A DNA stretch of 64,000 nt from Corallococcus macrosporus DSM 14697 (GTDB taxonomy: Bacteria > Myxococcota > Myxococcia > Myxococcales > Myxococcaceae), in NCBI RefSeq assembly GCF_002305895.1, contig NZ_CP022203.1:1528501-1592500 (forward strand), read 5' to 3'. Both the position numbers and the translations under genes were made by a program. Position 1 is the stretch's first letter. The number at the start of each line of letters is the position of its first letter. Below are positions 44,901 through 63,083 of the stretch, piece by piece. The notes under the pieces were generated by a model that had not been told where the DNA came from, searched no databases, and worked only from the letters and a program-made list of their open reading frames with translations.

Positions 44901-46489
44901 GGCGTCTCCTCGATGCAGCGGCTGTCGATGCGGACCCGGTAGGAGCGCAGCTCGTCGTTCCAGTACTCGCCGTCGAAACGGTAGGCCGTTTGCGTGGGCG
45001 ACAGAATCTGCTCGTCCTCCGGCGCGACAATCCGCGCGCCCTTCTTCACGCGCTCGTACAGCTTCAGGCCCACTTCGTACTCCATCAGGCGCACCTGCTC
45101 GGCGGCGCGCAGCAGGGTGTCCGCTTCCTGGCGGACGGCCTCGGCCAGCCGCGCGTCATGGACGCGGACCGCCTCGGCGCGGGACAAGTCGTAGAGCTTC
45201 GTCAGGTGCGAGAAGAGCCGGTCGCCGAAGCTGCCGGCGTAGCGGCCCAGCCGCTCGCCCTCCAGCTCCAGCGTCTGCAGGAAGCGCGCGGCGCGCTGGG
45301 TGCTTCCATGGGCGTTGGCGGCGCGGCGCAGGCGCACGTCCTGCGTGAGGTCCTCGCGGTTGCGCACCGCCTCCAGCGAGTCCGCGAAGCGCCGCGTCAG
45401 CTCCTTGGCGGCGCGCTTGGCCGGCAGGTAGTGGCACAAATCCCGGTAGATGAGCGAGCGCAGCAGGTACTTGTCCGGCAGGAACTCGTCGCGGAAGGAC
45501 GGCGCGTCCAGCGTGGTGAGGATGCCCAGCGACGCGCGCAGCTCCCCCAGCTTGTAGCGGGTCCACGCCTCCTCCAGGTAGAGGCTGGCGCGGCCCGGGT
45601 CCAGCTCGGGCAGCTTCACGCGGTCATACGCCTCCAGCGCGCCCTGGAAGTCCTTGCGCTCGTAGCGCAGGCGCGCCACCGCCAGCGCCGCCTCGTTGCG
45701 GGCCTCGCGGGTGAGCTTCTCGTCCTCGGACAGCGCGAGGAAGTCGGCGATGATTTCGTCCGTCGGCTCCTTGACGTGCTTCAGGCGGGTGACGAGCAGC
45801 GCGAACTTCGCGTGGCTGGCCTCGGCGCTCGTCTCCGGCAGCTTGGCGAAGTGGGTGTTGGCCCAGCGCTCGTTGCCCACGCGCAGGTCCACCAGGCCCT
45901 GCTGGTAGTGCGCGTAGGCGCCCGTCTCCTCCGGGAGGAAGCCCAGGTCCAGCGCGCCGAACACCTGCTCGTCGATCATCACCTCGTCGTGCGGCCGGTC
46001 CGTCAGCGCCTTGAGCGCGTCCAGCGCGCGGGGCAGCACGTTGGGGTTGGAGCGCTCGCGCGCGATGCGAGCCAGGTACGAGGCCCCCGCGTGCGTCAGC
46101 CCCAGGTCGATGAGGCTGCGCGCGAGGAAGTACTGACCCCAGGCGTAGTTCTCATCCGTCCTGGGCGCGGCCTGGAGCCAGGCGTAGAGCGGCTCGGCGG
46201 CGTCGCGCGGGTTGCCATCGAAGTAGGCCTGGAGGGCCTGGTCGAAGACGGCCGGGTCCACCTTCTCGGGCGCGGGAGGCGGGGCCTCCGCGGGCTTGCT
46301 GGCGCCTTGCGCCGCGGGAGCCTGGGCGTCCGGGCTGGCGGGCGCCTTGCCGTCCGTGGCGGGCGGCGAGCCCTGCTCGGGCGCGGGGGACGTGGGCTGC
46401 GCGCCGCCCGCGGACTGCGCGGCGGCGGGCGCTGGAGACACGAGGAGCGCGGCGCTGGTGAGCGCGGCGATGAGCGAGCGGGAGGTCAT
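44897..46489 (-). CDS. TPR-containing periplasmic protein of the Glt/Nfs-like operon
   Basis: The 530-residue protein has a signal peptide (LIAALTSAALLVSPAPAAAQ). A disordered Pro/Ala/Gln linker (about residues 27-75) leads into a TPR-like region (VFDQALQAYFDGNPRDAAEP, AGASYLARIARERSNPNVLP, HYQQGLVDLRVGNERWANTH). The C-terminal half is helical with ETLRDAEQVR-type coiled segments and ends with a small beta-rich part. Both ends overlap neighbours by 4 bp (ATGA), so it is probably made together with the outer-membrane barrel upstream. Confidence 0.8.
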   Translation of the reverse strand: MTSRSLIAALTSAALLVSPAPAAAQSAGGAQPTSPAPEQGSPPATDGKAPASPDAQAPAAQGASKPAEAPPPAPEKVDPAVFDQALQAYFDGNPRDAAEPLYAWLQAAPRTDENYAWGQYFLARSLIDLGLTHAGASYLARIARERSNPNVLPRALDALKALTDRPHDEVMIDEQVFGALDLGFLPEETGAYAHYQQGLVDLRVGNERWANTHFAKLPETSAEASHAKFALLVTRLKHVKEPTDEIIADFLALSEDEKLTREARNEAALAVARLRYERKDFQGALEAYDRVKLPELDPGRASLYLEEAWTRYKLGELRASLGILTTLDAPSFRDEFLPDKYLLRSLIYRDLCHYLPAKRAAKELTRRFADSLEAVRNREDLTQDVRLRRAANAHGSTQRAARFLQTLELEGERLGRYAGSFGDRLFSHLTKLYDLSRAEAVRVHDARLAEAVRQEADTLLRAAEQVRLMEYEVGLKLYERVKKGARIVAPEDEQILSPTQTAYRFDGEYWNDELRSYRVRIDSRCIEETP

Positions 46490-47121
46490 TCCGTGGCGCC
46501 GAAGTTGAACGCGGTTCCGAACTGGATTTGCGGGACCTGGATGACGCGCGTGGCGCCGGTGAACACGGTGTTGTTCGTCACGTCCAGGCGCAGGGAGAGC
46601 GTCTTGCCGGTGAAGAGGCGCAGGCCGAGCCCCACGTTGACGCCGGGCCGGAAGCCGCCGTCGCGGTCGAGCTTCACCACCGTGCCGCCGCCCAGGAGGA
46701 AGGCCTCGATGTGCAGCACGGACTCGTTGAGGAAGGCCATCTTCCCGTAGAGCGGGCTCCAGATGAGGTCCGAGCCCACCATCCACTGCACCTGGTCCTG
46801 GAAGGCGGCGGCGTTGGGGGAGGTGTTGAAGTCGCGCTCCAACTGGCGGCGCAGGCTCGTCTGGAGGTTGTAGCTGTACGTGCCGCGGCCGACCTGCCAC
46901 GCGAAGGTGTCACTGAAGTGGTACGTGTACCCGACGCTGCCCACCAGGCCCTTGTAATAGGCGTTGGCCGGCAGCACGCCCACGCCGAGCAGCAGCTCGT
47001 GGTGCATCCGGAATCGCCGCTCCTGGATGGCGGACACTGCGCCGGGATTCTCCAGCGCCTCGGCCTGCGCGCGGACGAGTCCGGGCGTCAGCAGCAAGAG
47101 GATGAGCAGGGCGTATCGCAC
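46486..47121 (-). CDS. Outer-membrane beta-barrel protein (OMP_myx_plus/GltH-like)
   Basis: GTG 47121 gives 211 residues with a signal peptide (LLILLLLTPGLVRAQAEALE). Alternating strands follow: HHELLLGVGVLPANAYYKGL, GSVGYTYHFSDTFAWQVGRG, HIEAFLLGGGTVVKLDRDGG and FRPGVNVGLGLRLFTGKTLS. This pattern matches the myxobacterial outer-membrane barrel family found in Glt and Nfs clusters. It probably forms the outer-membrane end of the complex encoded here. Confidence 0.82.
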   Translation of the reverse strand: MRYALLILLLLTPGLVRAQAEALENPGAVSAIQERRFRMHHELLLGVGVLPANAYYKGLVGSVGYTYHFSDTFAWQVGRGTYSYNLQTSLRRQLERDFNTSPNAAAFQDQVQWMVGSDLIWSPLYGKMAFLNESVLHIEAFLLGGGTVVKLDRDGGFRPGVNVGLGLRLFTGKTLSLRLDVTNNTVFTGATRVIQVPQIQFGTAFNFGATE

Positions 47122-47171
47122 GGTGGGGGCTTCCTGGGGGAGGGCGGGAACAGGCGCGCGCAGGCGGCGCG

Positions 47172-49628
47172 TCAGTAGCCGACCGAGTTGAAGAGGAACG
47201 GGTAGGTGATGATGACGACGCCCCCCTTGGGGGCGGGGAACTTCCACGACTTCAGTCTGGAGAGGATGCAGGACTCGACGGAGGCATTGCGCAGCGTGGA
47301 GGACTTCGTCTTGGCGGCCACCACGCGTCCGCTGGCGCCGATGGTCCACTCCAGCACCACCTTGCCGGCCAGCCCCGGGTCCTTGAGCAGCCCGCGCTCA
47401 TAGCAGCCGTGGACCTCGTTGAGGTGGCTGTTGATGACGCGCGCCACCGCCTCGCGGTCCACGGTGCCCTGCGTGGAGGCGATGCTGCGGGCCGTGGCGC
47501 GGGTGACGGTGCCGCCCACCTTGCCCTTGCCCACGCCGCCCGCGCCCAGCGCGCCGATGCCGCCGCCGCCCTTGCCGCGCAGCAGCTCCTTGCCCAGCGT
47601 GGCGCCGCCGCCCTTGCCGCCGCCGCCCAACCCGAAGGTGCCCAGGCCCGCGTTGGCGATGGGCGCCTTCCCGATGAGGCCGGACAGCTTGTAGTTGGAG
47701 TTCTTCACGTTCTTGCTGCCGGGCCCGCTGCCGAGCTTGTCCACGGCGGCGAGCAGGTTGTTGGTGGCCGGGCCCGCGGCGGACAGCTTGGCCAGCGCCT
47801 TGAGCGCCTTGTTCTGCGGCGCGGCGGCGGCCACCGCCCGCTCGGGCTGCTTCGGCGGCGGCGTCTTCTCCACCGGCTTGGGCGGGGCCTTCTCCGCCAC
47901 CTTCTCCTTGGTGGGCTTCTTCGCCTGCGCCTTGATGGCCTCCAGCTTCTTCTTCGCCTCCTCCTTCTTCTTCGGTTCGGGGGCGATGAGGCGCAGCGCC
48001 ACGGGCGGCAGGCTCTTCTGCTGGAAGTCCGCCACCTCCGGCCGGTGCGGCTTCATGACCAGGAAGGCGCCCAGGGCGGAGGCGAAGAGGCCGAGGAAGG
48101 TCAGCGTCAGCCAGGGCAGGCCCTTGAGCGGGTTGACGAAGACGCGCGCGGGCTTGGGCGCGGCGTAGGCCACCAGCGACATCTGCCCCTGCGTCAGGCG
48201 CGCGGCGGTGCCCTCGCGCAGCGTGAGGAAGCGGCGGCTGCCGTCGGACTCCAGGGCCGCGCCGGTGACGGGCGTGAAGCGGCCGTCATTGCCGCTCTTC
48301 TCCACGTCGGTGCCCGGCGGCACGAAGAGGCGGAAGGCGTTGTTGACCGACTCGGCCAGCGTGAAGGGCGCGCCGTCCGGCAGCGTGAAGCCCCACAGGG
48401 GCATGGCCCCCTCGAGGTCCAGCGAGGCCTGCACCGGCTTCTTCTTGTCCGGCGCGAACCGGCGCGCGTCGCGGCGGATGGCGCCCCAGTACAGGTCCAG
48501 GTAGAGCTGCGCGGCGCCCTTGCCGGTCGCGATGCGCGGCGCGTGCGTGGGCCGCGCCAGCGTGCGCTGCTCTTCCAGCAGCGGCCCGGTGGGCTCCGGG
48601 AGCGGATCGATGGCGAGGTCCGCCATCAGCTCGTCCGCCAGCCGCATGCCCGTGTTGGCGCTGGGCGCGGGCTCCGGCGCGGCCCTGCGGCGGGCCGACG
48701 GCACCGTGCTGGCCGGCACGCCCGCGGGGGCCTGCTGCGCGGGCCACGGCGCGCCGGGGGACGCCGGGATGGCGGCGGGCTGCGCCTGCGCGACGACGTG
48801 CGCGTGGCCACCGGCGTGGACCTGGGCCTGGGGCGCCTGCGCGACGACGTGCGCGTGGCCACCGGCATGGGCGTGGGCCTGGGGCGGCTGCGCGGCGGTG
48901 TGCGCGTGGCCACCGGCATGGGCGTGGGCCTGGTGCGGCTGCGCGTGGGCCTGGGGCGCCTGCGCGACGACGTGCGCGTGGCCACCGGCATGGGCGTGAG
49001 CCTGGGGCACCTGCGCCACGGGTGGGACCATGGCCACGGCGGGCACGGGCTGCGCCGGCGTGGGGTAGGCCACCTGGGTCGCCACGTGCTGCACGGGTGG
49101 GGCGACGGGCACGCGCGCGGCCGGCAGGGTGGCGGAGTTGGGCGGAACAGCCGTGGCCGGGCGGAGCTGGTGCGCGGGCGCGGCGGAGGGCGGCGGAGCG
49201 GCGGCCTGCGGAGGCGGCGCGGCGAACGGCGAGGGCGCCTGGGCCGCGCCGAGCAGCGCGGCGACCTCGGGCGGCGGCTGCGGCTTGGCCTCCTGGGGCT
49301 TCTGCGACAGCACGCGCGTCTTCAGGATGAAGGGCCCGCAGAGGACCTCATCCACCGGCCGGATTTCACAGGCGGAGACGCGGTGCCCGTTGACGAAGAG
49401 CCCCCCCGCGGAGCCCGCGTCCTGTACCGCGGCGCGGCCGTTCTGGAAGTAGAGCAGCGCGTGCCGCGGCTCCACGGACGGGTCATCCAGCCGCAGGTCG
49501 GAGGCCGGGTCCGAGCCGAGCGCATAGGTGCCCGGCACGAACACCTCGGTGCCCACGAGGAGACCGTCGCGGAGGATGACGACTTGCAGGACGCTGGGCT
49601 GACCGCTCAACGGTGACGCTCCATTCAA
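47172..49628 (-). CDS. FHA-domain protein with TonB-like AgmX/PglI C-terminal tail
   Basis: The 818-residue protein has an N-terminal FHA phosphothreonine-binding domain (residues 14-100, GSDPASDLRLDDPSVEPRHA), a Pro/Ala- and His-rich linker and a second cytoplasmic domain. One transmembrane helix (about 506-526, WLTLTFLGLFASALGAFLVM) leads into a Lys/Pro-rich periplasmic stalk. A Gly-rich region (FGLGGGGKGGGATLG) precedes the C-terminal domain with NSHLNEVHGCYERGLLKDPG and GKVVLEWTIGASGRV, shared by AgmX/PglI-type motility proteins and related to TonB. It should link a cytoplasmic phospho-signal to the periplasmic TPR proteins. The start is TTG 49628, with no clear ribosome site. Confidence 0.88.
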   Translation of the reverse strand: MNGASPLSGQPSVLQVVILRDGLLVGTEVFVPGTYALGSDPASDLRLDDPSVEPRHALLYFQNGRAAVQDAGSAGGLFVNGHRVSACEIRPVDEVLCGPFILKTRVLSQKPQEAKPQPPPEVAALLGAAQAPSPFAAPPPQAAAPPPSAAPAHQLRPATAVPPNSATLPAARVPVAPPVQHVATQVAYPTPAQPVPAVAMVPPVAQVPQAHAHAGGHAHVVAQAPQAHAQPHQAHAHAGGHAHTAAQPPQAHAHAGGHAHVVAQAPQAQVHAGGHAHVVAQAQPAAIPASPGAPWPAQQAPAGVPASTVPSARRRAAPEPAPSANTGMRLADELMADLAIDPLPEPTGPLLEEQRTLARPTHAPRIATGKGAAQLYLDLYWGAIRRDARRFAPDKKKPVQASLDLEGAMPLWGFTLPDGAPFTLAESVNNAFRLFVPPGTDVEKSGNDGRFTPVTGAALESDGSRRFLTLREGTAARLTQGQMSLVAYAAPKPARVFVNPLKGLPWLTLTFLGLFASALGAFLVMKPHRPEVADFQQKSLPPVALRLIAPEPKKKEEAKKKLEAIKAQAKKPTKEKVAEKAPPKPVEKTPPPKQPERAVAAAAPQNKALKALAKLSAAGPATNNLLAAVDKLGSGPGSKNVKNSNYKLSGLIGKAPIANAGLGTFGLGGGGKGGGATLGKELLRGKGGGGIGALGAGGVGKGKVGGTVTRATARSIASTQGTVDREAVARVINSHLNEVHGCYERGLLKDPGLAGKVVLEWTIGASGRVVAAKTKSSTLRNASVESCILSRLKSWKFPAPKGGVVIITYPFLFNSVGY
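48783..49001 (-). repeat. His-rich tandem repeats within the FHA protein
   Basis: Residues 210-282 consist of imperfect repeats built on AGGHAH (four copies), for example HAHAGGHAHVVAQAPQ. The segment contains about seventeen His residues in 73 positions, in the cytoplasmic linker between the FHA domain and the membrane helix. Confidence 0.85.
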
Positions 49629-50324: not shown

Positions 50325-52622
50325 ATGAGCAGGAATGGCAGGCGTGCGTTGCTCGCGGTACTGGGCGCGTTGTGGGTGGCCGCGGGCGTGGTGGCGCATC
50401 GCCTCGGCGGCGCATCGCCGGCCGCTCCGGAGGCGCCCGCCGCGCGTCCCAGGCTGGTGTCGGTGGGGCCTCGGCTCACGAGCAATGAGACCTCCCAGCC
50501 GCTCTCCATCCAGGGGGAGCGCCTGGTGCCGGGCCTGTCGCTCTCGCTGGGGCCTCCGCTGTCGCTTCGGCTTCCCTTGACGGTGGTGGATGCCACGCAT
50601 GCCTACGCGCGGCTGCCCGCGGGCCTTCGCCTCCCGGAGGACGTGCCGCAAGCGGTGGTGGAGGCGCGGCTCGCCGGGCCCGCGGGCGGCGAGTCCGAGG
50701 GCGCCGCGCGGCTCACGGTGGTGAACGACGCGGCCTTCGCCGACCTGACCGCGATGGTGGGCTCGCCGGACGGGCGCACGCTCTACGTGGCCTCCGCGCC
50801 CACCGACACGGTGTTCGCGCTGGACGTCGAGAGCGGGCGCGTGGAGCGGCTGTCCACGGGGGATGGGCCCTCCGCGCTGGCGGCCTGGACGGATGGGGAC
50901 GGCAGGCCCTGGCTGGGGGTGGCACACCGCTATCAGCCGGAGCTGTGGCTGTACGCCCTGGACGCGCCGGGCGCGGCGCCCCGGGTGCTGCCCGCGCCGC
51001 TGGGGGCGGAGGGGGTGGTGGTGGATGGCCGGGGCGGCGTGGCCTTCGTGGCCGAGCGCGTGGGAGACCGGGTGCATGCGCTGTCGCTGGCGGACGGCCG
51101 GGCACGGTGGTCGGCGCCGGTGGACCCCAACCCTCGGGCGCTGGCGCGTTGGAAGGGCGTGCTGGCGGTGGGCAGTCTCCAGACGGGGCAACTGGAGCTG
51201 CTGCGGCAGTCGGACGGGACGCTGGTCTCCACGGTGGTTCCAGGCCCTGGTGTGCCCATCATCGGGGGAAACACCGAGCGCTTCCGGGAGCAGGTGATGG
51301 GCGGCAAGGCGCCCCGCTTCCTGGTGGCGAGCGAGCGGCTGGGCCACGTCTTCATGTCGAGCCTGGGGCCGAACGTGGGGCCCAATCCACAGCGCATGGA
51401 GGTGAGCGCGAACAGCGGGGTGTCGGTGGTGGAGCCCTCGCGGGGCGTCTACGTGCGGCACCGGGGCTTCGGCGCGGGCGGGACGGAGGGGCTGGCGCTG
51501 GATGACGGCGCGGGGTTGCTCTACGCGGCGGACGTGGGGCTGGGGCTGGTGCGGGTGCTGGACGCGCGAGCGCTCGTCGCGGGTGACGCCACGGCGCGGC
51601 GCGCGGTGCTCCAGGAGGTGGCGGTGACGCCGCCCCAGGGCACGCCGCGCATCCGGCCCGCGGGGGACTTCGGGGTTCGGGGCAGGGCGGGCGAGGCGCT
51701 CCATTCAGGGCCGAGCGCGCTGGCGCTGGCTCCCGACGCGCGCACGCTCTACGTGCTCAACCGCTTCACCCGGACGGTGGCGGTGGTGGACGTGCGCGAG
51801 GCGAAGGCGGGGCGGGCGGTGGTGGTGCGTCAGCTCCCCGTGGAGACGTCTCGCGCGCAGGCCAAGCGGCGGTTGGGGCAGGTCCTCTACTACGCGGACC
51901 TGGGACGCACGGGCATCACCTGTGACGGCTGCCACCTGGAGGGCCACACCGGGGGCGTCTTCTATGAGAAGACGCAGCCGAATCGCATCTACCGCTCCAC
52001 GACGCTGCGAGGCAGCCGCGACACGCCGCCGTACTTCACCCCCGCGAGTCACATCAGCCTCGTGGACACGGTGCGCTTCGTGGGCGCGCGCAACCGCTTC
52101 CACAACCCGGACCCGTCGCCCTCGGAGGTCGAGGCGCTGGCCCTCTACAACGCGCTCCTCGTCACGCCGCCCAATCCCTTCCGGGGCGAGGACGGCGCCC
52201 CGCTGGAGACGGTGACGCTCCCGGATGGAAGGGTGGGTCGCCCGGCGCCGGGGCGCGCGCTGTTCGAGGGGAAGGGCGCCTGTGTGACGTGTCACCCGGC
52301 GCCGCTCTACACGCTGGACCAGGACCTGGAGACGCGGGGGCGGTACCTCGACGTCGGGACGCCGGTGGCGCTGCCGCTGCGGCTGGAGCAGCAGGACCTG
52401 GTGCCTGGCGCGGCGACGCCCTCCCTAGTGGGCGCGTGGGACGTGTGGCCCCTGCTGACGAGCGCCACCGCGGGCTACGGGGTGAAGGACGGCCGGCTCG
52501 TGGTGGCGTCGCGCTTCGCGCTGCGCGCACTGTTGGAGACGTCCGGTCCCCGGCATGGCCACGCCAGCGCGCTCACGCCGGAGGAGCGTGACGACCTGCT
52601 GGCGTTCCTGCTCACGCTGTAG
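50325..52622 (+). CDS. Beta-propeller/di-heme c-type cytochrome
   Basis: The 765-residue protein has a membrane-anchor or signal segment (LLAVLGALWVAAGVVAHRLG), then an IPT/TIG-like domain (PRLVSVGPRLTSNETSQPLS). A YVTN/PD40-type propeller runs to about residue 500 (MVGSPDGRTLYVASAPTDTV, LALAPDARTLYVLNRFTRTV). The C-terminal region has two heme-binding motifs, CDGCH (533-537) and CVTCH (653-657), similar to cytochrome c peroxidase/MauG-like proteins. It probably transfers electrons in the periplasm, but its substrate is unknown. ATG 50325 was chosen because it directly precedes the anchor; the longer frame upstream covers the divergent region. Confidence 0.8.
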   Translation: MSRNGRRALLAVLGALWVAAGVVAHRLGGASPAAPEAPAARPRLVSVGPRLTSNETSQPLSIQGERLVPGLSLSLGPPLSLRLPLTVVDATHAYARLPAGLRLPEDVPQAVVEARLAGPAGGESEGAARLTVVNDAAFADLTAMVGSPDGRTLYVASAPTDTVFALDVESGRVERLSTGDGPSALAAWTDGDGRPWLGVAHRYQPELWLYALDAPGAAPRVLPAPLGAEGVVVDGRGGVAFVAERVGDRVHALSLADGRARWSAPVDPNPRALARWKGVLAVGSLQTGQLELLRQSDGTLVSTVVPGPGVPIIGGNTERFREQVMGGKAPRFLVASERLGHVFMSSLGPNVGPNPQRMEVSANSGVSVVEPSRGVYVRHRGFGAGGTEGLALDDGAGLLYAADVGLGLVRVLDARALVAGDATARRAVLQEVAVTPPQGTPRIRPAGDFGVRGRAGEALHSGPSALALAPDARTLYVLNRFTRTVAVVDVREAKAGRAVVVRQLPVETSRAQAKRRLGQVLYYADLGRTGITCDGCHLEGHTGGVFYEKTQPNRIYRSTTLRGSRDTPPYFTPASHISLVDTVRFVGARNRFHNPDPSPSEVEALALYNALLVTPPNPFRGEDGAPLETVTLPDGRVGRPAPGRALFEGKGACVTCHPAPLYTLDQDLETRGRYLDVGTPVALPLRLEQQDLVPGAATPSLVGAWDVWPLLTSATAGYGVKDGRLVVASRFALRALLETSGPRHGHASALTPEERDDLLAFLLTL

Positions 52623-52804: not shown

Positions 52805-54394
52805 ATGCGCGCCCTCACGCGGTCCGTCTGGCTCATTCCCGTGCTGTTGCTGTCGTGTTCCGACGCGGGCCTCTACGCGCTCAACGGGCGCGGCCCTGGC
52901 GGGAAGGACCGCGCCAGCTTCTCCGGCACCGTCTGCGTGCCGCTCGCGGGTGGCGAGGCGTTCCCCACCAAGGTGATCTTCGCCCTCCAGGGCGGCGAGG
53001 GCGTCGAGCGCGAGGTGGTGGGCTTCGCCACCGAGGCGCTGTCCACGCTCTCCAGCCGCTTCTCCGGCCCCTTCGTCCAGTTCAGCCTGGTGGCGTACCA
53101 CACGGTGGCCACCGGCCTGTTGGGCAGCTTCTCCGACGCCTCGGACTTCCAGGCCGCGCTGCCGCGCTACGCCACCTATCAGGAGTCCGGTCCGGTGAGT
53201 GTCCGCGCCGCCCTGCGCCTGGCCAAGACGCTGCTGTCGGGCGACATGCAGACGTCCTGCCGCGGCGAGGTGGCCCGCACGCGCTACGTCATCGTCGTCA
53301 TGGTGCGCAGCCAGGACACGAGCTGCGCCAACCCGGCCTTCAACGTGGGGCTCGACTCCCGGTGCAGCGCGCTGGGCAACACCACGGCGTGCAGCCAGTG
53401 TGAGCTCACCGCCATCACCGGCGAAATCAAGGCGCTGACCTCGCAGTTCAGCGCGGGTGAGGTGGTGGTGCAGCCCATCTACGTGCGCGGCGAGACGCCA
53501 GACCCCGTCACCCGCCAGCACGTGGCCGCCATCGCCGCCGCGGGCGGCACCGAGCCGCTGGAGACGGACGCGGCGGGCCTGTCCGGCACCCTCACCAACA
53601 TCCCGTACGCCGCGCGGACCAACACCCTCAAGCTCAAGCGCTTCTTCGCCTACAACCGCAACGTGGTGGTGCGCGCCGGCCAGGTGCTCGTCGACAGCGA
53701 CGGCGACGGCCTGCCCGACACGGACGAGGAGCTGCTCGGCACCGACCCCACGCGCCAGGACACCGACCAGGACGGGCTGATGGACGGCGTCGAGGTCCGC
53801 ATGGGCCTGGACCCGCTGGCGCCGGACCTCATCAACGGCTGCAACGTGTCCCTGGACGAGGACGGCGACCGCCTCAACACCTGCGAGGAGCGCGTGCTCG
53901 GCACCAACGCCTGCATCGGCGACACGGACGGTGACGCGCTGCCGGACCTGGTGGAGGCGCTGGCCATGACGAACCCGCTCATCTCCGAGGACCTGCTGGA
54001 CTCGGACCGCGACGGCATCACCAACGTGTCGGAGGTGGAGGCGCACGGCGACCCGCTCAGCGCCGACCTCGACTTCCACCGCGAGCGCGGCTACGGCTAT
54101 GAGCTGGTGGAGACCACGCCCACCGTGGATGGCCGCACCTGCTACCAGGTGCGCGTGGAGAACGTCACCGTCGTCCCCACCCGCGAGCGCCCGCACCCCT
54201 TCATCCCGGGCGAGGTCATCCCGGCGGGCACCAACGAGGTGTACCTCTACCTCCAGGCCGGCCGGGACAATGATCCGCGGGGCGCGGGCATCGGCTCGCT
54301 CCTCATCCAGGACATCCACTACAGCGAAGAGGGGGGCCGCCTGCCCGCGGGCATCATCCCCCTGGAGCCCGACACCTTCATCACCGGGACTTGA
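52805..54394 (+). CDS. vWA-like/TSP3-repeat surface lipoprotein 1 (no MIDAS)
   Basis: The 529-residue protein has a lipobox (LIPVLLLSCSD). A vWA-like domain follows (about residues 53-265: TKVIFALQGGEG, RYVIVVMVRSQDT, VVVQPIYVRGETP) that lacks the metal-binding DxSxS of its paralogues. Calcium-type TSP3/EF-like repeats (about 295-420) include DSDGDGLPDTDEELLGTDP and DTDQDGLMDGVEVRMGLDP. The C-terminal domain contains GYGYELVETTPTVDGRTCYQ and VRVENVTVV, shared with two downstream proteins. It is likely surface-exposed and calcium-stabilised. A 170-bp gap follows before the next gene, and the previous gene is 182 bp upstream. Confidence 0.8.
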   Translation: MRALTRSVWLIPVLLLSCSDAGLYALNGRGPGGKDRASFSGTVCVPLAGGEAFPTKVIFALQGGEGVEREVVGFATEALSTLSSRFSGPFVQFSLVAYHTVATGLLGSFSDASDFQAALPRYATYQESGPVSVRAALRLAKTLLSGDMQTSCRGEVARTRYVIVVMVRSQDTSCANPAFNVGLDSRCSALGNTTACSQCELTAITGEIKALTSQFSAGEVVVQPIYVRGETPDPVTRQHVAAIAAAGGTEPLETDAAGLSGTLTNIPYAARTNTLKLKRFFAYNRNVVVRAGQVLVDSDGDGLPDTDEELLGTDPTRQDTDQDGLMDGVEVRMGLDPLAPDLINGCNVSLDEDGDRLNTCEERVLGTNACIGDTDGDALPDLVEALAMTNPLISEDLLDSDRDGITNVSEVEAHGDPLSADLDFHRERGYGYELVETTPTVDGRTCYQVRVENVTVVPTRERPHPFIPGEVIPAGTNEVYLYLQAGRDNDPRGAGIGSLLIQDIHYSEEGGRLPAGIIPLEPDTFITGT

Positions 54395-54564
54395 GGCCCG
54401 CCTCGGGTGTGGGGTCCACCCCTCGGCCCCACTGAGGAGTCCCCCCCACACTCTTTGTTCGACGTGTCCCCACTCGTGCCCAACCCACTGACATTCCAGG
54501 GTTTATCCCAAGTGTCTGGTACGGATCGTTCCTTGCTAGGCGTCCGGCGTTGAAAGGAGTCACC

Positions 54565-55893
54565 ATGACACGCGCTCGTTTCGCTTCGGCCCTCACGCTG
54601 GGGGCCTTCCTCGTTCTCTCCCCCGCGGGGGCGCTGGCCCAGTCCAACAACAACCCCGACAACCCGGAGTGCCTGGGGGACCGGTGCGGCATGCCGCTCG
54701 AGCAGGGCGGCGGCTGTGGCTGCGGCGCGGGCGGCAGCGTGTGGGTGAACTACACGGACGACGGCGACACGCTGTCGTACACGGACGACGCGGACGGCGA
54801 CGGCCGCGCGGATGACCGGGACAACTGCCCCTTCGTCTCCAACCGCGACCAGGCGGACGATGACGGCGACGACGTGGGCAACGCCTGCGACAACTGCGCG
54901 TCGCTCTCCAACTTCCAGCAGCGCGACGCGGACGGCGACGGCATCGGCGACGACTGCGACCCGGACCAGGACAACGACGGCCACAACAACGATGTAGACA
55001 ACTGCCCGCTGGTGCCCAACACGAACCAGGTCGACCTGGACGAGGACGGCCTGGGCGACGTCTGCGACCTGGACGACGACGGTGACGGCATTTCGGACGG
55101 CGAGGACAACTGCCCCCTCGTCTACAACCCGGACCAGGTTCTGCCGGAGGACGTCACCGTGTGCCGCGTGGACGCGGACAACGACAACATCTCCGACAGC
55201 AGCGACAACTGCCCCGGCGTGCCCAACCCCGACCAGCGCGACACGGACGCTGACGGCGTGGGCGACGCGTGCGACCCCGACATGGACGGCGACAGCGTGC
55301 TCAACACGCAGGACAACTGCCCCGCCGTGGACAACCGCGACCAGCGCGACGATGACCGCGACGGCATTGGCGACGCGTGCGACACGCGCTACTGCCTGGT
55401 GACGAACTCCGAGCGCCCCGACGACTGCCTGGACCCGAAGGCGCCCTTCACCGTCAGCGCCGGTGGCCTGTTCCGCACCGAGAAGGCCGGCATCACCATC
55501 CGCCCGCCGCTGTTCGCCAACCGCAACGGCGCGGCCATGGAGTACGAGTGGGCGGTGGTGAAGCGCCCCTCCGGCTCCACGGCGGTGGTGGAGCGCCCGC
55601 AGGGCGCGGTGACGCTGAGCCGCGACTGGCAGTACATGTACGTCGACGGCAGCGTGCCCACCTTCGTCCCGGACAAGAAGGGCGAGTACCAGCTCCAGCT
55701 CACGGCGCGCCTGGCCTTCTCCGACCGCGTCTTCCCCGACCAGCGCGTGTCCACCTCCACCCTCACGGTGTTCGTGGGGGATGAGTCGGAGGGGGGCACC
55801 AACTGCAGCTCCGTGCCCGCGGGCTTCAGCGCCACCGCCCTGGGCGCCGCGCTGCTCAGCGTGCTGATGCGCCGCCGCCGCTCCCAGCAGTAA
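54565..55893 (+). CDS. TSP3-repeat protein with MYXO-CTERM-like anchor
   Basis: An AAAGGAG site precedes ATG 54565. The 442-residue protein has a signal peptide ([20 protein letters not shown]). About seven TSP3 repeats with Cys pairs ([38 protein letters not shown]) bind many calcium ions in homologues. A PKD/Ig-like domain follows ([36 protein letters not shown]). The C-terminus, [20 protein letters not shown] then MRRRRSQQ, has the Cys, hydrophobic helix and Arg cluster of MYXO-CTERM sorting tails. It is probably processed and anchored on the cell surface, alongside the vWA lipoproteins. Confidence 0.85.
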
Positions 55894-55927
55894 CCTCGCC
55901 GTCCCCCCGCCAGGAGGTCCCTTCCGC

Positions 55928-57907
55928 ATGCGCCGCCTCGTTCGTACCTCGCTGCTCGCGGCGGGCCTCCTGGGCTCGGGCCTGTGGTCCTGTTCGGACG
56001 CCATGCTCGAGTCGCGCGTGGACGCGCTCTCCAACCTGGATGACCGGCTGACGCTCCAGGGCCGGGTGTGCACGCGCCCGCCCAACCCCTCCGGCTTCCC
56101 GGTCAAGGTGGTGGTGGTCATCGACGAGTCGGGCAGCATGTGTGTGTCCGACCCGCCGGGCGCGCAGCTCGACAGCGGCTTCTGCCAGCGCCGGGAGATT
56201 CTGGACATCATCCCGGAGGGCGTCACCGAGCCCGCGCGCGTGCGCGCCCTCAAGCGGCTGGTGCAGCAGTTCCGGGAGGTGAACGCGCAGGGCGGCAACG
56301 TGCAGGTGTCCGTCGCCCCCTTCGAGACGAACGTGCGCAACGTCTGGCCGCCCGCCACCACGGGCGACCGCTTCGCCCGGCCGGACAACAACATCGACAG
56401 CTACATCGAGGGCCTGCAGAGCCAGCTCGGCAAGGGCACCGACTACCAGGGCGCGCTGTCCTACGCGTACAGCCTCATCGCCAGCGACATCAACGCGGTG
56501 GCGCAGTCCAACCCGGAGCTGCTGCCGCGCACCCGCTACGTCGTCGTGTTCCTCACCGACGGCACGCCCTATCCGCGCTGCTCGGCCACCGACAACCTCA
56601 GCGTCTACGCGGACCCGGACAACCCGGACCTGACGTGGGCGGACTCGCTGACGGACTTCTGCAACCTCACCAACACCACGGACCAGATTGACGGCTTCGA
56701 GGTGGGGACGGACCGCAACCAGAACTACCAGTTGTTCAGCTACGTGCGGCGGCTGATGGAGCTGAAGGACCAGTACAACGTGGGCGACTTGCGCATGCAC
56801 ACGGTGCTGCTCTTCAACCAGGAGGCGGTGCGGGCGTGCGGCCCCATCTGCCAGGACATCTACGGCGTGTACCCGGGCGTGGAGCAGGCGCGCTACCCGG
56901 AGGCGGCGAAGAAGATCGCCGCGTGGCTGCTGCGGCGCTTCGCGGACATGGGCAACGGCGTGTACCAGGAGTTCAACGACACGGGCGAAATCTCCAACCT
57001 GGGCCTGGGCGCGCTGGACTACTCGTCGTTCGCCTCGCGCAACGTGATGAAGACGCTGATGGTGGAGTCGCTCAGCTCCGCGCCGGGGGACACCGGCCGT
57101 GTGCTGGACAGCGACGGGGATGGCGTCCCGGACGCCATCGACAACAGCTTCACGCTGAAGACCAACACCTTCGTGGCGGACAGCGACGGGGACTGCCTGG
57201 ATGACGGCTTCGAGCACCGCCGCGAGGACCAGGGCTTCAAGGCCGCCAATGACCTGGACGCGCGCGGGTGCGACCCGGCCTCGCCGCTGACGCCCAACTG
57301 CGTCTGCCGCGACACGGACGGTGACGGCCTGTCCCAGTTCGCCGAGGACTACCTGCGCACGCGCACCGGCATCGTGGACAGCGACGGCGACGGCGTGCCG
57401 GACGGCCTGGAGTCACGCTGGGGGCTCGACCCGCTGGAGAACAGCGTGGCGGGCCTGGACACGGACGGCGACGGCATCCCGGACTACCAGGAGCTGCGCG
57501 CGGGCAGCGACCCCACGCGCCGCGACAAGGCCTTCCACGAGCGCTTCGGCTACCAGTACGAGACGCGCATCGCCGAGGTCCGCCCGGACGGCAGCCTCTG
57601 CTACGACTTCACCATCTCCAACCTGCAGCTCGTCACGCCGCCGGACCGCGCGGGCGTGAAGCAGGGCTACAACCTCTTCAAGGTGTGGTTCGCGGAGGCG
57701 CCGGAGAGTGGCGTGAGCACCGACTACGGCGTGTGGCGCACCGCCTGCGCCTGGGCGCAGTACGCGCCGCCCAGCGTGCGCGTCCCGCTGGGGCCGGAGC
57801 TGACCTTCGAGGACGGTGACTTCCGCCGGCCCGACACCTTGAGCAACCCGTGGAACAACCAGAACGACTGCGTCGGAATCCCGCCTTCGGGGAGCGCCAA
57901 TCCGTGA
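55928..57907 (+). CDS. vWA/TSP3-repeat surface lipoprotein 2
   Basis: ATG 55928 follows AGGAGGT. The 659-residue protein has a lipobox (LLGSGLWSCSD) and a vWA domain with an intact metal site (VVVVIDESGSM, DESGS 66-70; RYVVVFLTDGTPYPR). TSP3/EF-like repeats follow (DSDGDGVPDAIDNSFTLKTN, DTDGDGLSQFAEDYLRTRTG, DSDGDGVPDGLESRWGLDP). The C-terminal shared domain begins FGYQYETRIAEVRPDGSLCY. vWA domains with MIDAS bind protein ligands, and gliding adhesins such as CglB use one. Its stop overlaps the start of the next paralogue (GTGA). Confidence 0.88.
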   Translation: MRRLVRTSLLAAGLLGSGLWSCSDAMLESRVDALSNLDDRLTLQGRVCTRPPNPSGFPVKVVVVIDESGSMCVSDPPGAQLDSGFCQRREILDIIPEGVTEPARVRALKRLVQQFREVNAQGGNVQVSVAPFETNVRNVWPPATTGDRFARPDNNIDSYIEGLQSQLGKGTDYQGALSYAYSLIASDINAVAQSNPELLPRTRYVVVFLTDGTPYPRCSATDNLSVYADPDNPDLTWADSLTDFCNLTNTTDQIDGFEVGTDRNQNYQLFSYVRRLMELKDQYNVGDLRMHTVLLFNQEAVRACGPICQDIYGVYPGVEQARYPEAAKKIAAWLLRRFADMGNGVYQEFNDTGEISNLGLGALDYSSFASRNVMKTLMVESLSSAPGDTGRVLDSDGDGVPDAIDNSFTLKTNTFVADSDGDCLDDGFEHRREDQGFKAANDLDARGCDPASPLTPNCVCRDTDGDGLSQFAEDYLRTRTGIVDSDGDGVPDGLESRWGLDPLENSVAGLDTDGDGIPDYQELRAGSDPTRRDKAFHERFGYQYETRIAEVRPDGSLCYDFTISNLQLVTPPDRAGVKQGYNLFKVWFAEAPESGVSTDYGVWRTACAWAQYAPPSVRVPLGPELTFEDGDFRRPDTLSNPWNNQNDCVGIPPSGSANP

Positions 57908-59652
57908 GCCGCGCCGTGAGAGTGCTGGCGGGCGCGCTGGTGTCCGTGGTGCTGGTGATGGCGTGTACGGATTCCTATCTGTACGACCCTCGCCGGGACA
58001 CGGACGTGCCGGTGGACCGGGCGGTGGCCCTGGACGGCCGCTTCTGCACCGTGGGCAGCAACGAGGTGGTGCGGCCCATCAAGCTGGTGGTCGCCATGGA
58101 CGCCTCGCAGTCCATGCGGGTGAGCGACCCGGACGGCGCGCGCGCCACCGCGCTGGTGGAGCTCATCCAGAACCTGCCCAGGGACCCCGAGGTGTCCCTG
58201 GCGGTGATGCTCTTCGCGGGCAGCACCACCGCCTTCCTCACGCAGCAGCCGGGCAACCCGCCCCAGGACGGCTTCGTGCAGGTGTCCTCCATGGATGACG
58301 CCGCGCTGCGGCGCCTGACGGAGCAACTGCTCACCTTCCGCAACCCCGACACCTCGCCGAACCGCGACTCGACGGACTTCGTCAAGCCGCTGTCGGACAT
58401 CTACTCGCTCATCAACACGGACATCGCGCGCAGCCGCCTGGACCCGGGCGGCCCGCAGGCGCTGGCGCAGGCGCGCTACTCCGTCATCTTCCTGTCGGAC
58501 GGCAAGCCCACCAACGACCAGGACGACGAGCTGCTCCGCGGCGACGCGGTGGTGCGCATCCGCCAGTTGCGCGATTTGGTGGAGGAGGTGCGCGTCAACA
58601 CCGTGCACGTCTTCAACCCCACGCAGCCGGTGTCCTCGGTGTGTGACCTGACGGGGGACGGGGGCTGCCCCATGCTCATCATCAACCAGAACGCGGACCG
58701 GCTGGAGCAGATGGCCACGCTGGGCGGCGGCAACTTCCGCGACTTCCGCAACAACGAGCCCATCAACTTCCTGGACTTCACCTTCGGCCAGGTGCGCCGC
58801 GCGTTCATCATGAAGGAGCTGGTGGCCTTCAACTTCTCCGCGCCGCCGGGCAGCCCCGTGGACGAGGCGGACTCGGACGGGGACGGCCTGACGGACGCGC
58901 GCGAGCTGGAGCTGGGCACGGACCCGCATAAGGTGGACACGGACGGGGACGGCTTCAGCGACGGCGTGGAGGTGTACTTCCGCGACCGGGGCGTGGACTT
59001 CAACCCCACGCAGGAGGCCCTGCCGGACGGCGGCGGGCTGGACCGCGGCTGCCCGCCGGCGCTGCGCGGCGTGGACTCGGATTGTGACGGCCTCCTGGAC
59101 TGCGACGAGCAGTTCGTGGGCACCAACGCGACGCTGGCGGACAGCGACCGGGACGGCGTGCCGGACGGCGTGGAGTGGCTGGGCGGCACGCAGGGCGCCA
59201 GCAATGACTTGGACGAGGACCCGGACAACGACGGGCTGACGAACCGCATGGAGCTGAGGATGCACACCCGGCCGCTGGAGGTGGACACCGCGGACCTGTC
59301 GGTGAATGGCTACCGCTACGCCTTCGAGGCGGACGGCCCGCCGGACGACCTGGGCCGCCAGTGCTACCGCTTCCGCGTGGAGAACGTCCTGCTGGCCCCC
59401 ACGAGCGCGTCCACGGATGACGCGGGCGTGGTGCAGCGCGGGGCGGGCTTCAATGACATCGCCATGTCCGTGGCCATGGTGCCCGGAGACGACCCCACCG
59501 CCCGGACCCTCATCCGCACCTTCCGCGTGAATGACGTGCGCTACCCCGTGGGCGGCATCAAGTCGCCCGCCGACGGCGTCATCCGCGTGGAGCCCGAGCA
59601 GTTCGTCGACGGCTGCCCCGGCCGCCCCGACGACGTGCCCCCGACGCCTTGA
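57904..59652 (+). CDS. vWA/TSP3-repeat surface lipoprotein 3
   Basis: The GTG start at 57904 overlaps the preceding stop. The 582-residue protein has a lipobox (VSVVLVMACTD), a vWA domain with intact MIDAS (LVVAMDASQSM, DASQS 66-70, the same position as in paralogue 2; RYSVIFLSDGKPTNDQ) and TSP3 repeats (DSDGDGLTDARELELGTDP, DTDGDGFSDGVEVYFRDRG). The shared C-terminal domain (NGYRYAFEADGPPDDLGRQC then YRFRVENVLLAPT) follows. The three proteins are clear paralogues made from one locus and may form a hetero-complex at the cell surface. Confidence 0.88.
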   Translation: MSRAVRVLAGALVSVVLVMACTDSYLYDPRRDTDVPVDRAVALDGRFCTVGSNEVVRPIKLVVAMDASQSMRVSDPDGARATALVELIQNLPRDPEVSLAVMLFAGSTTAFLTQQPGNPPQDGFVQVSSMDDAALRRLTEQLLTFRNPDTSPNRDSTDFVKPLSDIYSLINTDIARSRLDPGGPQALAQARYSVIFLSDGKPTNDQDDELLRGDAVVRIRQLRDLVEEVRVNTVHVFNPTQPVSSVCDLTGDGGCPMLIINQNADRLEQMATLGGGNFRDFRNNEPINFLDFTFGQVRRAFIMKELVAFNFSAPPGSPVDEADSDGDGLTDARELELGTDPHKVDTDGDGFSDGVEVYFRDRGVDFNPTQEALPDGGGLDRGCPPALRGVDSDCDGLLDCDEQFVGTNATLADSDRDGVPDGVEWLGGTQGASNDLDEDPDNDGLTNRMELRMHTRPLEVDTADLSVNGYRYAFEADGPPDDLGRQCYRFRVENVLLAPTSASTDDAGVVQRGAGFNDIAMSVAMVPGDDPTARTLIRTFRVNDVRYPVGGIKSPADGVIRVEPEQFVDGCPGRPDDVPPTP

Positions 59653-59663
59653 GAAACGACGCC

Positions 59664-62060
59664 ATGCCCACCTCTGTCCGTCTGCTGCCGCTCACGCTGC
59701 TCGTCCTCGCCGCCTGTTCGTCCGGAGGAGGCGAGACACCGGACGCGGGGACTCCCGCGGTGGAGGACCTGTGCAACTCCCGCGAGGACGCGCTGACGCG
59801 GCCCGAGTGCGAGCTCAAGCCGGGCGAGCCGCTGGAGCGCTTCCTGGCGCTGGACAGCGAGCCGCGCGCCGGGGACCAGGACTGGTACCGCATCGTCCTG
59901 CCGGCCGGCACCAACGCCCGCACGCTGCTGAACGTCAACGGCGCGTACCTGGCGGCCAGCACCGCGGTGAACCTGTCCGTCACCATCCTGGGGCCGCTGC
60001 CGAATGGGGAGGAGGGCGCGCTGGCGAAGAAGGAGGACAAGCACGCCCAGGGCGCGCCCCGGCCGGTGGACATCGTGCTGCCGCTGCGCGACGGGCTGGA
60101 GAACCAGACGCTGCTGGTGCTGGTGCAGGACGCGCCGGACGTGCCGTCGCGGCCCAACTACGACGCGCGCAACAAGTACCGGTTGTCGGTGCGCATCGAC
60201 CAGAACCCGGACGAGCAGGAGCCCAACGACACGCATGAGACGGCCACGCCGCTGGTGCTGACGCAGTCCGGGGAGCTGCTGATGGGCGCCTCCACCGGCT
60301 ACCTGGCCACGGACAACGACGTGGACCACTACGCCTTCGACCTGGAGGCGGGGAAGATTGTCTACGTGCGCGTCGTCGCGCCCAACCTGGACTTCGTGCC
60401 CAACTGGCGCCTGTCCTATGAGCTGTGGCGCCCGGGCTTCACGGAGAAGGAGGACGAAGGCGTCGTGCTGCCCCAGGTGCGCGGCGGCGAGCTGGCCACC
60501 GCGCGCAAAATCAAGGTGGGGCACGCGGGCCGCTGGACGCTGGTGGTGAAGGGCTACCGCGGCACCAATGACCGGGACACCGCGCAGGGCGACCTCACGC
60601 AGCCCTACGAGGTGGAGGTGCGCGTGCTCGAGGAGGAGGACCCGCAGGACCAAACGACGCCAGACGTCCCAGACGACCACGACGACAATGACAAGGTGCA
60701 GTGGGCCACCACGCGGAACCTGAGCGCCGCCACGCCCGGTGGCACGGGCTCCGCCGTCTCCTTCACCGGCCGCCTGGGCTACATCTCCGACCGGGATTGG
60801 TACGCGGTGCAGCTGCCGGCCTTTGGCACGTCCTCGCTCTTGCGCTACCGGCTGGTGCCGCTGGACTCCGGGGGCCGCTTCCCTACGCTGCCGGTGACGG
60901 CGTCGCGCGTGTTGCATGTGTTCACCCTGAGCGCCGTCGGTGACAACCTGAACGAGTGGCGGGAGAACTGCGCCACCAGGCCGGAGGTCTGTCCGCGCGA
61001 CTTCTCCGAGAACCCAGACGCCCGGGCCCTGGTGGACGGCTTCTGCCGCCGCACGGACCTGCCCGCGCCCATGTGCGTGCACTCCTCGCGTGAGGAGGCG
61101 GTGGACAACGCGCGCTTCACCGGGCTGAGCAACTTCCGGGGCGTGATTCCCGTCCCGGCGCACGCCGGCGTGGTGACGTACTACTTCCTGGTGCAGGACA
61201 ACGGCTCGTGGGTGGATGACCGGGACTATCACCTGGAGGTGAGCTGGGACGCGGAGGACGCGGACGAACTGGCCCGCTACGTCGACGGCGCCGAGGCCCC
61301 CGTCCAACGGCCCATGGCGTCCACCACCGCCTTCCCCGCGCCGCCGGACACGGCGGAGTTCTCCGTCTCCGGCCAGCTCTCGCATGGCCACGGCCGGCTG
61401 CGCAGCGGCACCGACCGCCTCAACGGGCTCGGCGTGCGCGGGCCGCTGGACTACGACGCGGTGCCCTCGGACGTGGACTCGTACGTGTTCGACCTGCCCA
61501 CGGTGCCGCCGCCGGAGGACCGGACCTGGCTGCTCCAGTGGGAGGTGCAGAAGCTGGCGGATGGCGGCACGCCGCATGGCTTGGCGCTGGACCTCACCTT
61601 CTGTGACGCGGACGCGCCGGACGCCGGCACCGGGAGCTGCGTGCCGGTGCGCGCGGGCAACCGGGGGCCGCTGACGCTGGGCTACCGCTCGGACGCGCTG
61701 CGGGCCTGGCACACGCCGGCCAACGCGGGCACCAGCAGCCTGCAGCCGCTCTACCAGTTGGAGGACCGGCCTGGCTCCACCGTCGTCACCCTGGCGCCCT
61801 ATGCCTGCGGCTGCCTGGAGCGGCGCTTCATCCGCGGCGGCACCCTGCGCGTGGACGTGACGGCGTCGGAGCGGCTGGACTACGAGCGCGTGGACTACAC
61901 GCTGCGCACCGGCCACGGGGACTATCCCCAGAGCTACCCGGTGGACGGCGGGACGACGGTGGCGTGCCCGGCCGTCACCGACGGTGGGACGACGCCGGAC
62001 GGGGACGGCGGCGTCATCCAGAACTACGCCGGGGGCTGCAACTTCACCTACCAGCCGTGA
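59664..62060 (+). CDS. PPC-domain lipoprotein of the vWA/TSP3 cluster
   Basis: ATG 59664 gives 798 residues and a lipobox (LLVLAACSSGG). Several bacterial pre-peptidase C-terminal (PPC)-like beta domains follow. One is marked by QEPNDTHETATPL and DNDVDHYAFDLEAGKIVYVR, others by SDRDWYAVQLPAFGTSSLLR and DVDSYVFDLPTVPPPEDRTW. Asp-rich linkers (VPDDHDDNDK) and several Cys pairs occur. PPC domains are non-catalytic surface modules. It starts 11 bp after vWA lipoprotein 3 and ends at a strong terminator, so it belongs to the same unit. Confidence 0.82.
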   Translation: MPTSVRLLPLTLLVLAACSSGGGETPDAGTPAVEDLCNSREDALTRPECELKPGEPLERFLALDSEPRAGDQDWYRIVLPAGTNARTLLNVNGAYLAASTAVNLSVTILGPLPNGEEGALAKKEDKHAQGAPRPVDIVLPLRDGLENQTLLVLVQDAPDVPSRPNYDARNKYRLSVRIDQNPDEQEPNDTHETATPLVLTQSGELLMGASTGYLATDNDVDHYAFDLEAGKIVYVRVVAPNLDFVPNWRLSYELWRPGFTEKEDEGVVLPQVRGGELATARKIKVGHAGRWTLVVKGYRGTNDRDTAQGDLTQPYEVEVRVLEEEDPQDQTTPDVPDDHDDNDKVQWATTRNLSAATPGGTGSAVSFTGRLGYISDRDWYAVQLPAFGTSSLLRYRLVPLDSGGRFPTLPVTASRVLHVFTLSAVGDNLNEWRENCATRPEVCPRDFSENPDARALVDGFCRRTDLPAPMCVHSSREEAVDNARFTGLSNFRGVIPVPAHAGVVTYYFLVQDNGSWVDDRDYHLEVSWDAEDADELARYVDGAEAPVQRPMASTTAFPAPPDTAEFSVSGQLSHGHGRLRSGTDRLNGLGVRGPLDYDAVPSDVDSYVFDLPTVPPPEDRTWLLQWEVQKLADGGTPHGLALDLTFCDADAPDAGTGSCVPVRAGNRGPLTLGYRSDALRAWHTPANAGTSSLQPLYQLEDRPGSTVVTLAPYACGCLERRFIRGGTLRVDVTASERLDYERVDYTLRTGHGDYPQSYPVDGGTTVACPAVTDGGTTPDGDGGVIQNYAGGCNFTYQP

Positions 62061-62113: not shown

Positions 62114-62551
62114 TCAGGGCGCCACGCCCAGCCCGTTGAGGGTGATGACCTGCTGGGGGGTGTTGGCGGCGTTGGACTCGATGGTCACCGTGCCGTCGTA
62201 TTCCGTGTCGTCGGTGGGCCGGAAGGCCACCGTGAGGAAGGCGCGCTCATACGTCTCCAGGCGCAGCGGCGTGCCCGGGGTGAAGCCTTCCGGGAGCTGG
62301 AGGGTGAAGACGCCTGGGGCGGACAGGGTGATGGCGGTGATGTCGAGCGGATCCAGGCCACGGTTCTGGATGGCCAGCGAGTTGAAGGTCGTCTGCCCGA
62401 CGTAGGTGCCGTGTTCGAACTCGCGGTTGAACGTCAGCGCCGCGCGGTCGATGAAGAGGGTCGGCGCCTGGGGAAGCTCCACCTCGTTCCCACAGCCAGC
62501 CAGGGCGAAGAAGATGAAGGGGAGCCAACGGGTACGCAGTCGCATGGACAT
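62114..62551 (-). CDS. Small lipoprotein with choice-of-anchor-D/ASH-like Ig domain
   Basis: The 145-residue protein has a lipobox (PFIFFALAGCGNE). A single Ig-like fold of the ASH/choice-of-anchor D type follows: LFIDRAALTFNREFEHGTYV, FNSLAIQNRGLDPLDITAIT, FTLQLPEGFTPGTPLRLETY and VAFRPTDDTEYDGTVTIESN. ATG 62551 and 62545 are both usable. It is divergent from the next gene, with only 25 bp between start codons, so the two promoters must overlap the genes themselves. Confidence 0.75.
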   Translation of the reverse strand: MSMRLRTRWLPFIFFALAGCGNEVELPQAPTLFIDRAALTFNREFEHGTYVGQTTFNSLAIQNRGLDPLDITAITLSAPGVFTLQLPEGFTPGTPLRLETYERAFLTVAFRPTDDTEYDGTVTIESNAANTPQQVITLNGLGVAP

Positions 62552-62576
62552 ACACGCCTCGCATGAGGGTCTGAAG

Positions 62577-63083
62577 ATGACGCCGGTTGTAACAGTGTTT
62601 GGTCGCAAGTCACAGGCAGCAGCGGTGCTGCTCTTCGCATCGCTTTGGGGGGCCTGCGACGGCACGCGCGAGGACTTCATCGGCGCGCGTGTGCAGGACA
62701 CCTGCGGCGCGGCCTGGCCTGTGTGCGACCGCGTGGCGGGCTGTATTCTCGGCTCGGAAAGTTATTCGGAAGGCCGCTTCCCTGGACGACAGCAGCTCAT
62801 CGTCCAGTTGAAGGAGGCCTCCACGGTGAAGGTGAGCTTCTTCCTGGAGGACGTCAGCGCGGCGGGCAGTGAGACCGTCGTGCAGTTCCACGAGGAGGGC
62901 TGCCGGGCGCGCATCCGCCGCGCCACGGAGGGCCGCGCGGTGTTGGACTTGATGGAGCGGCAGGGCGCCTTCACGGAAGAGGCGGAGCTCACCGGCGTGG
63001 GAGACCACCTCATCGAGTTCGAGTCCGACATGCAGGCGCGCTACATCGTCAAGGTGGACGTGGCGCCGCTGCGCAATCGCTAG
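62577..63083 (+). CDS. Small lipoprotein-like secreted protein of unknown function
   Basis: ATG 62577 produces a signal with a lipobox (LLFASLWGACDG) and a mature part of about 135 residues. Four to five Cys (VQDTCGAAWPVCDRVAGCIL, EEGCRARIRR) and a beta-rich domain (RQQLIVQLKEASTVKVSFFL, GVGDHLIEFESDMQARYIVK) suggest a disulphide-stabilised surface protein. It may belong to the same surface apparatus as the preceding cluster. Its TAG stop and the TAG stop of the convergent oxidoreductase share the palindrome CTAG. Confidence 0.65.
   Translation: MTPVVTVFGRKSQAAAVLLFASLWGACDGTREDFIGARVQDTCGAAWPVCDRVAGCILGSESYSEGRFPGRQQLIVQLKEASTVKVSFFLEDVSAAGSETVVQFHEEGCRARIRRATEGRAVLDLMERQGAFTEEAELTGVGDHLIEFESDMQARYIVKVDVAPLRNR

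Follow-up and report, generated by a model that had tools for sequence, protein, structure and literature searches.

The mts cohesion locus of Corallococcus macrosporus: three paralogous lipoproteins with a shared C-terminal domain, co-inherited with a Glt/Nfs-like gene cluster

We analysed a stretch of 64,000 nucleotides from Corallococcus macrosporus DSM 14697 (contig NZ_CP022203.1, positions 1,528,501 to 1,592,500; hereafter the window). Six plus-strand genes of this window, here called mtsA to mtsF, form the mts cell-cell cohesion locus, and a second gene cluster diverges from mtsA on the minus strand. An earlier note on the same DNA had described five genes at 52805-62060. All five are open at the places and in the order given there. 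The run begins one gene earlier, however, at 50325-52622, and the linked minus-strand cluster also lies outside the extent described. The names mtsC and mtsD follow from family models. The letters A, B, E and F, for the genes at 50325, 52805, 57904 and 59664, we infer from gene order, because mtsC and mtsD stand in third and fourth place in a conserved row of six genes.

MtsA (50325-52622) has a signal or transmembrane start, a beta-propeller-like part and, in its C-terminal part, a pair of CxxCH haem motifs; the propeller and cytochrome c matches are weak, and the two CxxCH motifs were counted in all 22 orthologues. The products of mtsB (52805-54394), mtsD (55928-57907) and mtsE (57904-59652, its start overlapping the mtsD stop in GTGA) are lipoproteins, in which a von Willebrand factor A (vWA)-type domain is followed by thrombospondin type 3 (TSP3) repeats and a C-terminal domain (CTD). 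Their lipoboxes can be read directly (LLSC-SD, LWSC-SD and VMAC-TD in MtsB, MtsD and MtsE), Pfam TSP3_bac is above cut-off in all three and each carries five DxDxD motifs, in agreement with the lipobox and TSP3 assignments of the earlier note. MtsC (54565-55893) combines a Sec signal and ten TSP3 DxDxD motifs with a MYXO-CTERM sorting tag (TIGR03901, 21.3 bits, cut-off 20), which is how it had first been described. Proteins with such a tag are displayed at the surface after processing by myxosortase (PMC11980579). The last gene, mtsF (59664-62060), encodes a large lipoprotein and keeps its position after mtsE in other genomes. It had been called a PPC lipoprotein, and D-x-D-x-Y stretches do resemble PPC by eye, but the label could not be confirmed, as Pfam returned no family for the whole protein (E<=0.1) or for four pieces of it (E<=10). 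It is flanked on the minus strand by a conserved neighbour, an ASH/choice-of-anchor-D-like lipoprotein (62114-62701; Cep192_D4 32 bits and choice_anch_D 27 bits, both below cut-off).

The assignment to mts comes from NCBIfam, which labels MtsC and MtsD as cell-cell cohesion proteins. MtsC matches NF047638 over its full length with 600.5 bits (cut-off 350) and the product of 55928-57907 matches NF047639 with 1353 bits (cut-off 800). On the latter model MtsB and MtsE reach only 90 and 150 bits, which identifies them at the sequence level as paralogues and not as MtsD. Myxococcus xanthus AM003 carries the same genes in the same order, with an MtsD that is 97% identical. Judged by these matches, the locus is the mts cell-cell cohesion locus already published from Myxococcus, and its involvement in cohesion is known from the work of others. 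In M. fulvus HW-1 and M. xanthus, according to the abstract of Zhang et al. 2007 (J Bacteriol 189:7937), mts is reportedly of importance to motility, fruiting and cohesion. A passage of a 2025 paper, citing Zhang et al. 2007, ascribes cohesion, S-motility and development to "MstC", in its spelling (PMC11980579). Literature searches on mtsABCDE, on MtsC together with MtsD and on MXAN_1330-1335 found no publications. We found no description of the shared CTD, of the loss of the metal site in MtsB, of the gene with haem motifs or of a tie to the minus-strand cluster in the accessible literature, a scope that does not include Zhang et al. 2007. The whole mts locus is also contained in a record that bears the name Comamonas sp. 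KCTC 72670 (L059, BNCN01000002.1), with an MtsD 95% identical to that of the window; this label is probably wrong.

The CTD comprises about 105 residues and is homologous in MtsB, MtsD and MtsE. It begins with GYGY in MtsB (54089-54391; profile match G000:C1:1582571-1582885), with GYQY in MtsD (57548-57904; G000:C1:1586030-1586377) and with GYRY in MtsE (59308-59649; G000:C1:1587793-1588128), within a few nucleotides of the starts near 54088, 57543 and 59302 proposed before. Pairwise local alignments score 15.7, 5.6 and 5.0 standard deviations higher than shuffled sequences. Moreover, hidden Markov models (HMMs) were built for each of the three orthologous families with the window sequences excluded, and each of them retrieves the two remaining families from other genomes and the two remaining proteins from the window. 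The strongest cross-match is that of the MtsB-family HMM to the MtsE of the window (E 4.8e-15) and the weakest that of the MtsD-family HMM to MtsE (E 0.0038), where the reverse search, from the MtsE family to MtsD, gives E 1.4e-6. The proposal of a shared domain in the three lipoproteins is thus borne out. Its motif can be written as [GA]Y.Y, C[YF].F.V.N...L..T and G.N, followed by an end rich in proline and glycine; one cysteine and one glycine are invariant in an alignment of 37 CTDs.

None of the libraries that we searched names the CTD as a domain. No Pfam family covers it; one or two members at a time gave scattered matches, the best with E 0.001 (EHD_N, one member), which were taken as chance. 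NCBIfam holds no stand-alone entry, and its sole match is the full-length MtsD model, which spans the CTD and matches 35 of the 37 CTDs. By sequence, no relative was found in the PDB (best E 0.79). The earlier description of the domain as apparently undescribed therefore holds for Pfam, stand-alone NCBIfam entries and the PDB; it does not hold for the locus, which is published, or for the MtsD model. AlphaFold2 predicted the MtsE CTD alone with fair confidence (mean predicted local distance difference test (pLDDT) 83.6, predicted TM-score 0.65), and the order of helices and strands agrees between this model and that of full-length MtsB, which argues against unrelated folds in the two paralogues that were modelled. 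A comparison of the fold with the PDB gave a best Foldseek E of 1.2 and no VIA-align row with Z>=2, a result that does not in itself demonstrate a new fold. In some distant lineages the CTD of the third paralogue is followed by a long extension, and the B-like paralogue has an insert ahead of the second half of the domain. In one distant family (f11), the extension of the MtsE-like protein measures about 500 residues and is rich in cysteine where it was read (L043 9658-13182, L044 9137-12517, L045 10094-13282, L055 10252-13542).

The vWA domains of the three paralogues differ in their metal-ion-dependent adhesion site (MIDAS). MtsD is the sole paralogue with a Pfam vWA match (VWA_2) above threshold, and its MIDAS motif is intact (DESGSM), DxSGS being present in 52 of 53 orthologues. 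MtsE reaches 14-16 bits with VWA_2, below the cut-off of 27, and this score is inconclusive by itself; its MIDAS slot (DASQS) follows the pattern D-x-[ST]-x-S, as do all 51 of the orthologues examined, and the two together suggest a vWA-type domain. In MtsB Pfam detects no vWA. The predicted structure of the full-length protein has a mean pLDDT of 80.6, with the vWA domain mostly above 80, and its N-terminal domain matches vWA and integrin I domains with Z 18-20 in structure comparison. The slot reads GG.G, and a check of 32 MtsB orthologues, eight of which could not be placed by the pattern, found no DxSxS. According to the model, the N-terminal domain of MtsB is a vWA fold that has lost its MIDAS. 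The earlier claim of vWA in all three lipoproteins hence stands for MtsD by Pfam and for MtsB by predicted structure, and for MtsE it leans on sub-threshold Pfam matches and the conserved slot. Since the motif is kept in MtsD and MtsE and lost in MtsB, two of the paralogues can accommodate a MIDAS metal, which the third probably cannot do.

The profile search of myxobacterial genomes that the earlier note had proposed was carried out on a sample of 174 Myxococcota genomes. The CTD was found in 107 of them, with exactly three copies in 82 of the 107; the genome of the window also has exactly three, all at this locus. Scores above the respective NCBIfam cut-off are reached by MtsC in 104 genomes and by MtsD in 76. 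MtsA occurs in 80, all of which carry an mts CTD. The order C-D-E, with B upstream as in the window, is found across families of the phylum, and the full order A-B-C-D-E-F in the Myxococcaceae. A scan of contigs with MtsD returned records of the Myxococcota type only, except for one odd label and one record titled Deltaproteobacteria. The CTD can serve as a clean sequence marker for the system.

The cluster that diverges from mtsA (38586-49628, minus strand) contains clustered GltG-, H-, C-, D- and E-like genes and is in this respect a Glt/Nfs-type set. Next to mtsA lies a GltG-like protein (47172-49628) with an FHA domain (Pfam), a transmembrane segment and an AgmX/PglI (TonB-like) tail; it scores 207 bits with NF033760, short of the cut-off of 650, and 120 bits with myxo_SS_tail. 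Between its FHA domain and the transmembrane segment (window 48600-49000) we noted a repeat rich in histidine and alanine, with units like QAHAHAGGHAHVVAQAP, possibly a metal-binding or variable-length linker. An outer-membrane beta-barrel in the position of GltH (46489-47127; TIGR04565 OMP_myx_plus, 115 bits, cut-off 60) is followed by a GltC-like protein (44897-46489; NF033756, 90 bits, below the cut-off of 450) and a GltD-like protein with tetratricopeptide repeats (TPRs; 41631-44900), which was assigned by its placement in a tree. Two lipoproteins come next: the first (41140-41649, lipobox ALCAC) gave no family match and keeps its order in L111 and L113, and the second, a coiled-coil protein (40508-41143, lipobox LLSAC), keeps it in L111, L113 and L114. 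A TPR protein in the position of GltE (38586-40580) matches TPR families and scores 99.5 bits with the GltE model, below the cut-off of 225.

Luciano et al. 2011 described GltD homologues of M. xanthus in the clusters G5 (MXAN_1327), G4 (MXAN_1922), G3/nfs (MXAN_3374) and G1 (MXAN_4870), the function of G4 and G5 being reported as unknown (PMC3169522). The genome of the window has four full-length GltG and four GltD homologues, at 1.57, 2.33, 3.96 and 6.01 Mb, parallel to the order of these four locus tags; its true GltG, with 1093 bits, is at G000:C1:6007940. By order and content, the minus-strand cluster fits G5, an orphan paralogue of Glt and Nfs, and we call it G5 here. When 46 GltD proteins were placed in one tree, the 17 G5-type rows formed a single clade, split from the 29 paralogues with support 100. 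G5 thus shares with the Glt (gliding, G1/G2) and Nfs (spore, G3) systems the same kinds of parts in a similar order, namely a GltG with FHA domain and TonB tail, an outer-membrane barrel, a GltC-like protein and GltD-like and GltE-like TPR proteins. It differs from them by its separate GltD clade, by scores below the GltG, GltC and GltE cut-offs and by a mutant reported to have no motility defect. Another paper places MXAN_1327 in a Tad-like pilus cluster (PMC10196010), in contrast to its description as the GltD homologue of G5; nothing in the present data speaks for a pilus.

We found that mts and G5 are inherited together. Both a G5-type GltD and an mts CTD are present in 105 of the 174 genomes, the CTD only in two, the GltD only in one and neither in 66, so that 105 of the 108 genomes with either have both (Fisher p 1.7e-44, a value that ignores relatedness). 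In a test with 21 genomes, the best GltD match of each positive genome far outscored all other paralogues. All three exceptions have the look of assembly gaps. In both CTD-only genomes (G094, G014) a G5 GltG gene adjoins mts close to the end of a contig; the one with GltD only is 86% complete and in about 1050 contigs. Members with both and members with neither occur inside the same families (f1, f2, f6, f8, f9, f16 and f24). Close linkage of the two clusters is seen in f1, f8, f9, f10, f11 and f14, and in f16 via GltG or MtsA. Within the window's own family, mts, MtsA and G5 are all absent together from several large genomes (G049, G050, G052, G053, G077-G080), whereas G051 and G054, which share a genus code with the first four, retain all three, a pattern of joint loss or gain. 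As far as the searchable literature shows, the tie between mts and G5 appears to be new.

Homology, domain order, the MIDAS pattern, synteny and co-inheritance are what we observed; the mechanism behind them is our inference. With somewhat better than even confidence, we propose that Mts is a calcium-stabilised surface cohesion complex for which G5 acts as a dedicated trans-envelope scaffold. MtsB, MtsD and MtsE, each with a lipid anchor, a vWA domain, a calcium-type TSP3 stalk and a CTD, would form with the TSP3-rich MtsC an adhesive surface layer stabilised by calcium. The MIDAS-bearing vWA domains of MtsD and MtsE would bind ligand, and MtsB would more likely be structural. The CTD, present once in each member of a 1:1:1 set of paralogues, would most likely dock the three proteins into one assembly or onto MtsC. 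G5 may place, hold or anchor this assembly across the envelope, as Glt serves gliding. The calcium-dependent surface adhesion complex envisaged in the earlier note finds support, as a reading, in the MtsC and MtsD cohesion equivalogs and in the 2025 paper (PMC11980579).

Several points weigh against a scaffold role of G5. A polar mutation in MXAN_1327 of M. xanthus caused no appreciable motility defect (PMC3169522), and since mts is reported to be needed for social motility, this argues against Mts depending strictly on G5. Perhaps G5 is required just in cohesion, in development or under some other condition, or perhaps it is independent of Mts. The naming of the cluster as G5 is itself inconclusive, as it relies on the number of paralogues, the genes in the cluster and their relative place in the genome and not on a locus-tag match. 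Finally, mts and G5 are unlinked or on different contigs in f6, f7, f23, f24 and f27.

The same mutant fits an explanation in which Mts is a self-sufficient calcium cohesion complex and G5 has a separate job, the two being co-inherited through a shared lifestyle or as one genomic block; where the clusters adjoin, loss as a block would be easy. We regard this as unlikely, because co-presence persists in genomes where the two are not adjacent (G010, G139, G149, G161, G162, G168, G171), and because G163 lacks both whereas its relatives hold both unlinked. Other Glt paralogues, furthermore, occur in genomes free of mts (G028, G049, G077), and the co-occurrence is therefore not general to Glt-like genes.

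Cohesion of M. xanthus depends on exopolysaccharide, and vWA MIDAS domains take many types of ligand. It is conceivable on these grounds that the ligand of Mts is prey or the exopolysaccharide matrix instead of an adjacent Mts protein, and that the cohesion phenotype is indirect. The Pfam and NCBIfam scans found no sugar-binding family; the present data do not separate the ligands, and we consider this explanation improbable.

A gliding adhesin of the CglB/CglD type, the relation suggested in the earlier note, shares the concept of vWA and TSP3-type lipoproteins beside a Glt-like cluster, but is hardly tenable: the Mts proteins score 32-43 bits with the CglD model (NF033765, cut-off 400) with no match beyond the TSP3 repeats, no CglB family turned up in the general NCBIfam scan (the CglB sequence itself was not compared), the G5 mutant glides normally (PMC3169522), the GltG-like gene is below the GltG cut-off, the G5 GltD lies in a different clade of the GltD tree, and the published role is cohesion and not gliding. 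The TraAB outer-membrane exchange system is of a different make, TraB being a beta-barrel with an OmpA-like domain and mts encoding vWA lipoproteins.

Two loose ends meet in the scaffold proposal, namely G5, reported without function in 2011, and mts, whose link to the envelope is undescribed in the accessible literature. Their shared inheritance suggests a third use of a Glt/Nfs-type machine, holding cells together. Near-perfect as it is over 174 genomes, it also makes the function of G5 directly testable. More tentatively, and with distinct doubt, G5 and mts might be one ancient Myxococcota system, a third trans-envelope machine of the Glt/Nfs type that displays or tensions calcium adhesins between neighbouring cells. 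It would be a bacterial counterpart of an envelope-linked cell-cell junction, with the haem protein MtsA helping in maturation or loading and with a CTD unique to the system.

Elsewhere in the window, a short protein that by eye resembles DUF4150/PAAR proteins is encoded at 18025-18558 and is followed by genes in a stretch of lower GC content (0.645 for 20-24 kb); the region 18025-24411 looks like an effector-type island.

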